A stretch of 40,067 bases of DNA, taken from Candidatus Methylomirabilota bacterium (GTDB taxonomy: Bacteria > Methylomirabilota > Methylomirabilia > Methylomirabilales > 2-02-FULL-66-22). This document shows positions 5,057-31,717 of this stretch, piece after piece. Every line of letters starts with the position of its first letter. Within the stretch, counting starts at the first letter, position 1. The DNA is taken from positions 1 through 40,067 of the forward strand of contig JACPAT010000026.1 in assembly GCA_016180655.1 (NCBI GenBank), written 5' to 3'. The notes beneath the pieces are model-generated. The model searched no databases. It was given only the letters and a program-made list of their open reading frames with translations, and was not told the DNA's origin. Made by a program: the position numbers and the translations under genes.

Positions 5057-5082
5057 TCCTCACGTAGCTGCCTCACTCATCT

Positions 5083-5128
5083 TCAAAAGTGTAAGGCCTG
5101 ACCCTGGGGTCAGGCCTTACACTTTTGA
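5083..5128. repeat. Perfect 22-bp-arm palindrome, REP-like and bidirectional terminator-like
   Basis: The left arm (5083-5104) and right arm (5107-5128) are perfectly complementary over 22 bp around a 2-nt centre. The outer parts read tcaaaagtg and cacttttga, so both strands end the stem in a run of T. It lies between the convergent macro-domain and tctA genes and should stop transcription in both directions. Palindromes with a gtaaggcctgacccc-type core are common as scattered REP-like elements mobilised by Y1 (RAYT) transposases. No such transposase is in this window, so that link is inference. Confidence 0.75.
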
Positions 5129-5135
5129 TACTCGG

Positions 5136-6638
5136 TCAGGCGCGGGAGGGGGCCCGGCTGAACCGGCGGAACAGGATGGGGTAGACGGGAGTCAGCCAGG
5201 TGAGGATGGTGAGGACCGCCAGGATGGCTGCCGTCGGGCGCGTGAAGAACTGCGTGAGGTCCCACTCACTCTTGATCATGCTCACCATGAAGTTCTGCTC
5301 GACGATGGGGCCCAGGACCATCCCCAGGACGATGGGGGCCACGGGGATGCCGTTGGCCTCGAAGAAGTAGCCCAGGATCCCCATGGCCAGCATGGTCCCG
5401 ACGTCGAACAGACTGTTGTTGATGGCGAAGGAGCCCACGATGCAGAACATCAGGATGGCCGACATGAGAATATTGCGCGGTACCCGCAGCATGGTGCTGC
5501 TGACCTTGATGGCCAGATAGCCGAAGGGAACCATCAGGATGTTGGCGATGATGAAGGACACATAGACCGCATAGACGAGCTGGGGCTGTTCCTGGAAGAT
5601 CATGGGACCGGGCCGCAAGCCCTTCATATAGAGGACGCCGATGACGATAGCCGTGATGGAGTCGCCGGGGATCCCGAAGACCAGGGCAGGAACCCAGTCC
5701 CCCGCCAGGCAGGAATTGTTGGCGGTCCCGGCGTCCACGATGGACTCGATGGAGCCCTTGCCGAACTTCTCCGGCTCCTTGGAGAACCGCCGGGAAACGG
5801 CGTAGGCGATCCAGGCGGCGATGTCGGCGCCCGCGCCCGGCAGGACCCCGATGAACGTGCCCAGGAGTCCCGATCGGCCGATGTTGACCTTGTACTTCCA
5901 CAGCGTTTCGGCCACGCCGCGAAAGATGTTCTCGGCCTTGACGGCCGTGATCGGAAACTTCAGGTGGGCGCTGGCCATGTTTCGCAGGATCTCGGAGACA
6001 CCGAAGAGGCCGATCATGGCGGGGATGAAGTCCACGCCGTTCAAGAGCTCGGTGATGCCGAAGGTGAAGCGGGGGTACCCCAGGGTGATATCAACCCCCA
6101 CCGTGGAAAAGAACAGCCCCACCAAGAGGGCCAGGCCGGCCTTGAGGGGGGAGATGCTGGCGATCATCACCGTGGCGGAGAGCCCCAGGGCCGCCAGCCA
6201 GAAGTACTCGAAGGACGTGAACGTGAGCGCCACCTCGGCCAGCAGGGGGGCGGCCGTCATCAGGATCACTGCCCCCATCAGGCCACCCATGGCCGACGTG
6301 ATGACATCCACTCCCAGGACCAGCTCCGCCTTCCCCTGCTTCGTCAGCTCGTAGGAGTCATCGGTGTAGGCGGCGGACGAGGGCGTCCCCGGGATGCGCA
6401 CCAGCGCCGCCGGGATGTCGCCGGCGAAGATGGCCATGGCCGACATGGTCACGATGGAGACCAGGGCCGCCAGCGGCTCCATGAAAAAGGTGAAAGGCAC
6501 CAGCAGGGCCGCGGCCATGGTGGCGGTCAGGCCCGGGACGGCGCCGACGAACAGCCCGAAGATGCTGCAGAGGGTAATGGTCAGCAAGAGCTTCCAACTG
6601 GTGAGCATGACCAGGGCGGCCTGGATGTTCTCGATCAT
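5136..6638 (-). CDS. tctA: Tripartite tricarboxylate transporter large permease TctA
   Basis: This roughly 500-residue polytopic inner-membrane protein (DUF112/TctA family) has about ten to twelve hydrophobic segments. It shows the family's conserved VGAVPGLTATM near the N-terminus and the VLPGAGADIAAWIAY and FGIPGDSITAIVIGVL loops, the Gly/Pro-rich motifs thought to form the transport path. Together with TctB and TctC it imports a small carboxylate using an ion gradient. The ATG at 6638 (MIENIQAALV) lies 4 bp after the tctB stop and is chosen over an upstream in-frame start that would overlap tctB. It is the last gene of the operon, followed by the 5083-5128 hairpin. Confidence 0.95.
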   Translation of the reverse strand: MIENIQAALVMLTSWKLLLTITLCSIFGLFVGAVPGLTATMAAALLVPFTFFMEPLAALVSIVTMSAMAIFAGDIPAALVRIPGTPSSAAYTDDSYELTKQGKAELVLGVDVITSAMGGLMGAVILMTAAPLLAEVALTFTSFEYFWLAALGLSATVMIASISPLKAGLALLVGLFFSTVGVDITLGYPRFTFGITELLNGVDFIPAMIGLFGVSEILRNMASAHLKFPITAVKAENIFRGVAETLWKYKVNIGRSGLLGTFIGVLPGAGADIAAWIAYAVSRRFSKEPEKFGKGSIESIVDAGTANNSCLAGDWVPALVFGIPGDSITAIVIGVLYMKGLRPGPMIFQEQPQLVYAVYVSFIIANILMVPFGYLAIKVSSTMLRVPRNILMSAILMFCIVGSFAINNSLFDVGTMLAMGILGYFFEANGIPVAPIVLGMVLGPIVEQNFMVSMIKSEWDLTQFFTRPTAAILAVLTILTWLTPVYPILFRRFSRAPSRA

Positions 6639-14648: not shown

Positions 14649-14717
14649 GCATTTCGGATGGCGAATTTCGGATGGCGAATTTTCAATCCGAAATTCGAAA
14701 TCCGACATTCGAAATGC
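14649..14717. repeat. Palindromic attcgaaat-family repeat between cytochrome c and actA
   Basis: The 69-bp element begins gcatttcg and ends cgaaatgc. The left half has two gcgaatttcggatg-like units and the right half complementary aatccgaaattcgaaa units, so the whole can fold on itself. It is much more AT-rich than its surroundings. A 7-bp direct repeat, gccggcg, flanks it at 14632 and 14727, but this could be chance in GC-rich DNA. It splits the cytochrome pair from the act genes. Confidence 0.65.
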
Positions 14718-29839: not shown

Positions 29840-30673
29840 TCATCCCTTGACCGCCCCGAAGGTGAGGCCGGTCACGATGTGCCGCTGCACGATCAGCGTG
29901 AGGATGATGACCGGCAGGGTGATCATCGTGGCGGCGGCGGCCAGGGGCCCCCAATTGATCTCCTCGTAGCCGATCATGTTGAAGACGGCGATGGGCAGGG
30001 TCCGGGTGTTCCGGCCGGCCAGGATCACCGAGAACAGGAAGTTGTTCCAGGAGAAGATGAAGCTCAGGATGGAGGTCGCCACGATCCCCGGCTTCACCAG
30101 GGGCACCGCCACCCGCCAGAAGGCCCCGTAGTGGGAGCAGCCGTCAATCAGCGCCGCGTCCTTCAGCTCCGGCGGGATGTCCTCGAAGAACCCGATCATG
30201 ACCCAGATGATGATGGGCAGGCCCACCACCAGGTGGGTGAGGATGAGCGCCTGGTAGGTGTCCACCATGCGGAGGTTCCGGAACAGGATGTACCAGGGGA
30301 TCAAGTAGCTGATCCCGGGGATGATGCGGGCGACCAGCATGGTGAGGGCCAGGCCGCGCTGCCGCCAGTGGGCGATGCTGTAGGCCGCCGGCAGCCCGAC
30401 CGCCAGGCCCAGTACCGTGCATCCCACGGCCACGACCAGGCTGTTCCAGGTGTAGAGCAGGAACGGATGCTTGGCGAAGACCTCCTGGTACCCCTTGAAG
30501 GTGACGGAGAAGCGGAAGAAGCTCGGGGGGTATCCCGCCGCCTCCACCTGCGGCTTCAGGGAGAGGGTGATCATCCAGTAGAAGACGAAGACCGTGGGCA
30601 GCATGACGGCGATCACCAGGGCGTAGAACCCCGCCGTCCGGAGCCAGTTCCGCAGCCTTTTCCCGGTCACCAT
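29840..30673 (-). CDS. ABC sugar transporter permease, MalG type
   Basis: This 277-residue inner-membrane permease has six hydrophobic segments and the binding-protein-dependent transport domain. The EAA loop that contacts the ATPase reads DAALIDGCSHYGAFWRVAVPLVKPGI (about 168-193). The KGYQEVFAKHP segment before the second helix is typical of the CUT1 MalG group. The ATG at 30673 is preceded by GGAGGG; both lie inside a 19-bp sequence that is repeated at the end of malF, so this start region was duplicated by a repeat insertion. No transporter ATPase gene is found in the window. Confidence 0.95.
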   Translation of the reverse strand: MVTGKRLRNWLRTAGFYALVIAVMLPTVFVFYWMITLSLKPQVEAAGYPPSFFRFSVTFKGYQEVFAKHPFLLYTWNSLVVAVGCTVLGLAVGLPAAYSIAHWRQRGLALTMLVARIIPGISYLIPWYILFRNLRMVDTYQALILTHLVVGLPIIIWVMIGFFEDIPPELKDAALIDGCSHYGAFWRVAVPLVKPGIVATSILSFIFSWNNFLFSVILAGRNTRTLPIAVFNMIGYEEINWGPLAAAATMITLPVIILTLIVQRHIVTGLTFGAVKG

Positions 30674-30826
30674 CCGACCCTCCGGGTATCCATTATTCGG
30701 GGCCCATCCCCCGGGATTTTCGATTTTGGATTGCGGATTTCCGATTGCTCAAAATCGACAATCGAAAATCGACAATCGAAAATTGGATCGGGTCCCTCCC
30801 CCTGGCATCACCATCCGACCCTCCGG
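30667..30826. repeat. Palindromic repeat inserted between malF and malG with 19-bp direct repeats
   Basis: tcaccatccgaccctccgg occurs perfectly at 30667-30685 and again at 30808-30826, flanking 122 bp. The inner part (about 30716-30787) is an AT-rich palindromic array of gattttcg and aaaatcga units, the same family as at 14649-14717. One copy of the 19-mer carries the malG ribosome binding site and start codon and the other the last codons and stop of malF. Removing one copy plus the insert restores an ATGGTGA overlap of malF stop and malG start, as usual in such operons. This is strong evidence for insertion with target duplication. Confidence 0.8.
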
Positions 30827-31632
30827 ACCTTCATGAGGATGAGGGAGGCCCCCATGACGATGGCGAACAGGGCCACCGCCATGGACGAGGCGTAGCCCAT
30901 GTTGAAATACGAGAAGGCCTGGTTGAACAGCAGGATGTTGATGGTCTCGGAGGAGTTCGATGGCCCTCCCTGCGTCATGACGAAGATGATGTCGAAGGTC
31001 TTCAGGGCGTCAATGGCGCGGAACAGGATGGCCACGATGATCGTCGGTCGCAGGAGGGGGAGCGTGATGTACCAGAATGACTGCAGGCCCGTGGCCCCGT
31101 CAATGAGGGCGGATTCGTACGGCTCCCTCGGCAGGGCCGCCAGACCCGCCAGGGCGATGAGCATGATGAGCGGGGTCCACTCCCACACGTCCACCAGCGC
31201 CAGGGCGTACAGGGCCGTCCGGCTGCTGTAGGTCCACTTGAACGGGGCCAGGCCGGTCAGGCTCACCAGGTAGTTCATCACCCCCAGCGTCGGGTGGTAC
31301 ATCATGACGAAGACCTCCACCGACACCGCCAGAAAGGTGAAGTAGAGCGTCCGGAAGAACGCCTCCCGGAACCTGGGGTCTCCCGTCAGGATCTGCTGAT
31401 AGTTGGCGAGGGCGATGAACTTGGGCAGGGTCAGGCTCGAGGCGAACCATTCCTGGAGGCTCATCCAGCCGGTGTACAAGACCGGGTAGATGATGATGAG
31501 CGCCACCGTGATGGCGGCCGGGGCGGGAAAGAGAAAGCGCGCGTTCCGGTGGGCGAACCGCGACAGGCGGACGCCGACGCCCAGGGCCGGCTCGGGGGCG
31601 GACAGTCGAACGGCGTCAGTGGAATTGGGCAT
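30808..31632 (-). CDS. ABC sugar transporter permease, MalF type
   Basis: This 274-residue inner-membrane permease has about six transmembrane helices and the EAA loop ESALIDGATGLQSFWYITLPLLRP. It pairs with the MalG-type permease and the binding protein upstream to form a CUT1-type carbohydrate importer; the sugar is unknown. The ATG at 31632 (MPNSTDAV) is preferred over an in-frame start at 31686, because the longer form would begin inside the intercistronic hairpin at 31661-31717. The C-terminal codons lie in the 19-bp duplicated sequence. Confidence 0.93.
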   Translation of the reverse strand: MPNSTDAVRLSAPEPALGVGVRLSRFAHRNARFLFPAPAAITVALIIIYPVLYTGWMSLQEWFASSLTLPKFIALANYQQILTGDPRFREAFFRTLYFTFLAVSVEVFVMMYHPTLGVMNYLVSLTGLAPFKWTYSSRTALYALALVDVWEWTPLIMLIALAGLAALPREPYESALIDGATGLQSFWYITLPLLRPTIIVAILFRAIDALKTFDIIFVMTQGGPSNSSETINILLFNQAFSYFNMGYASSMAVALFAIVMGASLILMKVRRVGW

Positions 31633-31660
31633 CTGTCGGGCCGCCTCGTCTCCTCCCGCG

Positions 31661-31717
31661 AAAAGAGCCCGGCCCTCCCGCCACATCGAGGACGATGGGG
31701 GGGAAGGCCAGGCTCTT
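31661..31717 (-). terminator. Intercistronic hairpin between the sugar-binding protein and permease genes
   Basis: Read on the minus strand, a 12-bp stem (aagagcctggcc with ggccgggctctt, one G-U pair) with a roughly 31-nt loop is followed by TTTT. It lies 16 bp after the binding-protein stop and before malF. Such partial terminators or RNase barriers let the binding protein be made in excess over the permeases. Confidence 0.65.

Follow-up and report, generated by a model that had tools for sequence, protein, structure and literature searches.

Short intergenic repeats in other bacteria

Several kinds of short intergenic repeat have been described in bacteria. The BOX elements of Streptococcus pneumoniae are short composite repeats in which two end modules enclose an optional, exchangeable centre, the whole being predicted to form an RNA stem-loop; they insert into one another, vary in the copy number of boxB, and have both terminal inverted repeats and target duplications (PMC3049150). 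The (GGGANTN)n heptamers of Xanthomonas, often paired in inverted orientation so that stem-loops can form, lie mostly between co-directional genes, near the upstream gene, and are found between the same gene pairs in related species, with length and sequence altered (PMC4692102). In marine Beggiatoaceae, the abundant intergenic 7-bp repeat TAACTGA is almost always direct and is not palindromic (PMC4679880). ERIC, Correia and other prokaryotic MITEs are short hairpin elements found in the intergenic stretches of transcribed operons, and RNase cuts some of them in the mRNA (PMC10969869), and the IS1202 group comprises 1.5-kb elements with a transposase that generate target duplications of 16–28 bp (PMC10132070).

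The locus described here lies in the genome (G000) of an uncultured NC10 (Methylomirabilota) groundwater bacterium, within a stretch of 40,067 nucleotides, the whole of which is called the window. It was compared with the same-genus genomes G001 (NC_groundwater_1518), G002 (JPNA_maxbin.176, JAKPQH01), G003 (NC_groundwater_1465) and G005 (RIFCSPLOWO2_12_FULL_66_18). The spacer between its malF and malG genes is probably a composite hairpin element of low copy number that sits between cistrons and consists of a GC-rich frame with a replaceable centre. It resembles BOX in organisation, namely in its conserved end modules around a variable centre (GC or AT, at malF–malG and at cysM), whereas the frame sequence, as far as known, differs; moreover, unlike in BOX, the hairpin of a given frame is replaced by one of unrelated sequence, and convincing frame target duplications do not extend beyond one locus. 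Like the Xanthomonas arrays, the NC10 spacers contain inverted intergenic 7-bp units in the same gene spacers across species. The Xanthomonas units share one G-rich consensus, whereas the NC10 unit varies by species at one site (ATTnnCG, GAATGCG, GGGGGTT, CAACTGA); as the inverted Xanthomonas heptamers are likewise kept between the same genes, the general phenomenon has a precedent (PMC4692102). The CAACTGA and CAACCGA heptads of G001 resemble the Beggiatoaceae TAACTGA repeat, whose arrays are described, in the abstract of that paper, without a frame. In common with ERIC, Correia and other MITEs, the frame is a short hairpin element within operons; unlike in them, neither terminal inverted repeats nor consistent target duplication are apparent in the copies compared, and its copy number is very low. 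A literature search on repeats of NC10 bacteria returned nothing, and a search of Rfam yielded no family, its hits all falling well short of the gathering score.

The malF–malG junction in the window

A perfect 19-bp direct repeat, TCACCATCCGACCCTCCGG, occupies positions 30667–30685 and 30808–30826, at a spacing of 141; a perfect 19-mer so spaced does not arise by chance. Read on the coding (minus) strand the repeat is CCGGAGGGTCGGATGGTGA and includes GGAGG, ATG, GTG and the stop TGA. The two genes are named malF and malG from their sequence type and gene order, and malF homologues are present in 53 of 60 genomes. Coordinates and translations bear out the initial annotation, which had placed the malF stop in one copy and the malG ribosome-binding site and start in the other. 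The features, in the direction of transcription, are as follows.

30808–31686, minus strand: malF-like ABC sugar-transporter permease gene, the upstream gene (from translation; its TGA stop lies inside copy A)
30808–30826, minus strand: direct-repeat copy A, on the malF stop side, CCGGAGGGTCGGATGGTGA in coding-strand reading
30790–30805, minus strand: 5′ GC-rich frame piece CCAGGGGGAGGGACCC (CCACGGGGAGGGACCC at other loci)
about 30714–30785, no strand assigned: AT-rich imperfect palindrome of 7-bp units (ATTnnCG), the exchangeable centre; arms 30716–30746 and 30753–30783
30686–30712, minus strand: 3′ GC-rich frame piece GGGGGATGGGCCCCGAATAATGGATAC
30667–30685, minus strand: direct-repeat copy B, with GGAGG and the malG start
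29840–30673, minus strand: malG-like permease gene, the downstream gene, starting in copy B

The palindrome had been taken as the whole insert. It does lie between the repeats, but the inserted spacer also comprises the conserved GC-rich pieces on either side (30686–30712 and 30790–30805), which belong to the frame. The GTG within GTGA may be the true start of malG, because G003 reads CTGGTGA at this position.

Two further inverted repeats are found elsewhere in the window, at 14651–14708 (ATTTCGG heptad type) and at 5070–5141. In addition, homology matches to MalF are split in two pieces, which pointed to a 114-bp gap (38 amino acids, in frame) at 31315/31316 in the window; the stretch is present in G001, G002, G003 and G005, and its loss is either a genuine deletion or an assembly fault.

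Empty and filled junctions in relatives

In G002, a single copy of the repeat, GTCCGGAGGGTGGGATGGTAG, is found where malF and malG overlap (junction CCGGAGGGTGGGATGGTAG), and single-copy overlaps GTGGTGAG or ATGGTGAG occur at malF–malG in at least six Rokubacteria-type genomes. The initial annotation had suggested looking for such an empty site and had predicted that dropping one copy would restore the overlap, and these relatives have that same overlap. Because they possess one copy and overlapping genes, the 19-bp direct repeat is a true duplication in evolutionary terms. The duplicated junction is common to G001, G003, G005 and the window. The original duplication was 18 rather than 19 bp long, since the leading C matches in some genomes only, and the duplicated unit spans exactly the stretch from the ribosome-binding site (SD) to the stop codon. 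Although all genomes are metagenome assemblies, it is scarcely credible that an assembly or binning artefact accounts for a structure that is common to four separately assembled genomes and in which the substitutions differ.

The junction of G003 separates the duplication from the palindrome. Its repeat copies are identical at 17 of 18 positions and enclose the outer pieces TGCCACGGGGAGGGACCC and GATGGGGCCCCGAAGAATTGACGCC, as in the window, with a GC hairpin, CGCCGGTCCCGGACGGGAGTCCGGGAGAGGCGGG, between them and no AT palindrome. The AT palindrome stands between the repeats in three genomes (G000, G001 and G005). As G003 has the repeats and the outer spacer without it, the AT palindrome is nested in the GC-rich frame. 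The duplication accompanies the frame, and the AT centre was exchanged separately, as at cysM. What looks like one thing in a single genome is now two: the insertion site bears a duplication, and only some species have a palindrome there. The junction also provides a natural series (empty, GC-centred and AT-centred) suited to the questions of how hairpins between cistrons come to be exchanged and whether selection acts on structure alone.

The initial annotation had regarded the AT-rich palindrome family as the mobile unit that made the 19-bp target-site duplication, and had named repeats without the palindrome in a relative as evidence that would count against it; G003, of the same genus, has exactly this arrangement. 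To keep the AT palindrome as the unit that moved, G003 would have had to lose it later and gain a GC hairpin in its place. The presence of the palindrome between the repeats in three genomes, and the dispersal of its family in tens of copies in each of those three, speak for mobility of the palindrome. Against it, apart from G003, the outer frame is part of a different element, one that occurs without AT palindromes, and the other copies of the family carry no comparable duplications. The annotation had proposed that the copies be checked for flanking duplications of similar length; around 63 AT palindromes in the three genomes, which are not independent because many are orthologous, the longest sequence repeated exactly in both 45-nt flanks is of the length expected from shuffling, malF–malG excepted. 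Furthermore, at one spacer (locus 18) the palindrome is present in G000, G001 and G005, the site is empty in G003 and G006, and the comparison reveals no duplication (...TAGC|CTGATGG... in G003 versus TAGC-insert-CTGATGG). We consider this origin of the malF–malG duplication highly improbable.

Two arrangements of the AT palindrome at other sites are recorded here. In G005 the palindrome and a spacer are repeated about three times in tandem with a period near 87 bp (C245:6677–6920; L078, L221). In G000 (C192, C1) and G005 (C191, C213, C176, C71) the palindrome forms part of a longer repeat, present in multiple copies whose flanks are similar (L007, L008, L074, L080, L082, L215); this repeat may be a larger mobile element that carries the palindrome.

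The GC-rich frame

The frame reads CCACGGGGAGGGACCC ... GGGATGGGGCCCCG ... ATGCC and measures about 75 bp including the GC hairpin. Among 95 genomes of the class, only 4, all of this genus, contain it, at about 12 operon spacers, GC-centred and AT-centred copies taken together. The GC-centred unit of G003 matches other operon spacers of the genus at 89–94% identity. Alignment of 12 GC-centred copies (nine loci) reveals the invariant pieces GGGGA.GG.CCC.G and GGGA..GG.CCCCG and an A.GC end; by inspection of the 12 aligned copies, the frame ends, CCACGGGG and ATGCC, form no terminal inverted repeat. The stem between the invariant pieces has 19 pairs, with 96% of cells paired. Eight of the 19 pairs are changed on both sides, compared with 2.8 ± 1.3 in shuffled alignments (a value reached in 0 of 500), and slid controls have 1–3 such pairs. 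Substitution has thus left the structure of the stem intact.

At all loci examined, the frame lies between co-directional genes and in a single orientation relative to transcription; for 12 loci, treated as independent, a random choice of orientation would give this result with a chance of about 1 in 2000. The stop codon of the upstream gene is often 0–60 nt from the frame. The neighbouring genes, as read from translations, include nuoM–nuoN, secY–adk, rplW–rplB, lpd–lipA, cysM and dapB–dapL.

Most other copies of the frame sit between direct GAGCCGA heptads, and a duplication there would be hidden. No repeat flanks the frame at cysM or at a cyd-like locus, and malF–malG is the only frame locus with a convincing, non-heptad duplication. 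The link between frame insertion and duplication thus rests on a single event. The hallmark of a MITE, namely that its many insertions carry target-site duplications of consistent length, is seen neither at the frame loci nor at the 63 AT palindromes. The setting of these other copies is what would be expected if an 18-bp tandem duplication had come first at malF–malG and a hairpin element had then entered between its copies, either by targeting short tandem repeats or by template switching: at loci 4 and 22 the frame lies within an array that relatives have without the frame. This order of events requires two steps at malF–malG, however, and among the genomes compared at that junction none has the bare 18-bp tandem duplication without a spacer; we regard it as unlikely.

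Small GGGTACCC...GGGTGGCC hairpins are also inserted in GAGCCGA arrays (L111 in G000 C45; L003/L070 in the nuoA spacer), being present in some sister genomes and missing from others.

Origin of the duplication

A duplication of 19 bp had been considered long for known IS families. That statement needs qualifying, as the IS1202 group produces 16–28 bp (PMC10132070); the malF–malG duplication resembles that group in its length, and the malF–malG spacer differs from its 1.5-kb, transposase-bearing elements in being short. The model NF033594 (ISNCY_2), which may not cover IS1202, has no match in G000, G001, G003 and G005 and only weak matches in G002 and G006; an ISNCY_2 transposase as the source of the long duplication was set aside, with no match above the cut-off. 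All six genomes searched have HUH transposase genes, irrespective of whether they contain frames. The frame recalls the REP/RAYT system in that REP sequences are short palindromic intergenic repeats and the host has RAYT-sized Y1 transposases. In contrast to that system, frames do not flank RAYT-type genes: 20 Y1-transposase neighbourhoods in four genomes contain two partial look-alikes and no frame or heptad array. Linkage to RAYT was rejected, as the RAYT-type genes checked are flanked neither by frames nor by ATTnnCG/GAGCCG heptads. These searches found no mobilising enzyme for the frame.

Transposition would not be needed at all if a staggered break at the junction had been filled in, which would account for the 18-bp duplication, and a spacer copied from another place in the genome had been used to close the gap. 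Such a one-off repair accords with the single event, with the lack of terminal inverted repeats behaving like transposon ends, and with the reshuffling of spacer modules at many loci, for example nuoM in G000. It is nonetheless doubtful, because a random patch would not need the conserved frame ends seen in 12 copies.

In our preferred reading, that of a composite hairpin element, the GC-rich frame would have entered the overlapping malF–malG junction before G000, G001, G003 and G005 diverged, in the ancestor that they share. The 18-bp unit of ribosome-binding site, start and stop would have been duplicated along with this entry, leaving both genes working, and we infer that insertion of the frame made the duplication. 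Given the exact extent of the unit, from ribosome-binding site to stop, its length may be a matter of survivorship: where two genes overlap, an insertion may survive only with that stretch doubled, and the length would then reflect selection and not an enzyme. At an overlapping-gene site, survivorship can in this way mimic the signature of a transposase. The proposal that the insertion was neutral, thanks to the duplicated start site, remains plausible in that the copy carries a ribosome-binding site, start and stop; the inserted unit, however, is not the AT palindrome to which it was applied. The hairpin inside the frame would later have been exchanged in place, GC for AT or the reverse. The element would persist because its folding gives a tolerated or useful hairpin in the operon mRNA just after the stop codon, the hairpin presumably acting in RNA.

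Exchange of the hairpin centre

The hairpin centre is swapped in place within the frame at two loci. At malF–malG it is GC-rich in G003 and AT-rich in G000, G001 and G005; at cysM it is GC-rich in G000 and AT-rich in G001, in the same frame and at the same site. At nuoM, the sequence of G000 diverges from that of its sister genomes at the hairpin tip.

The AT centre and its relatives have an autocorrelation peak at lag 7 (mostly 0.44–0.72) and a self-complementarity z of 3–12, and they share the features of Xanthomonas-type inverted heptamers, namely a 7-bp period in both arms, intergenic position and inverted arrangement. At locus 15, near-identical flanks enclose ATTnnCG units in G005, AATTTCG in G000 and GAATGCG in G001; these spacers have z values of 7–10 and 7-bp autocorrelation of 0.59–0.72, and their direct similarity between species is low. 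Four types of heptad palindrome occur at locus 11 across five genomes. The statements on loci 11 and 18 are based on alignments, as the anchors of the autocorrelation and z scan picked up a single genome of the five at locus 11 and little of locus 18. Such differing heptad palindromes, which sister species have in the same spacer at several sites, reflect either rewriting in place or serial replacement by unrelated elements.

We tentatively suggest that, in the operon spacers of this genus, hairpins made of 7-bp units are retained at fixed sites, their sequence being replaced whole, both arms together, between sister species, and that the malF–malG frame is one such site, with ATTnnCG, GAATGCG, GGGGGTT and CAACTGA as types; this joint suggestion is somewhat less likely to hold than to fail. 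If this is true, either some hitherto unknown process would have to rewrite the two palindrome arms simultaneously, or selection would have to act on intercistronic structure irrespective of sequence. In G006, some of the same operon spacers are occupied by another kind of intergenic repeat, the ends of which, caggctgctcaaaaaggtccagatgc and gcagatgggcctttttcagcagcctg, are inverted (e.g., L240, L269, L094 and L105).
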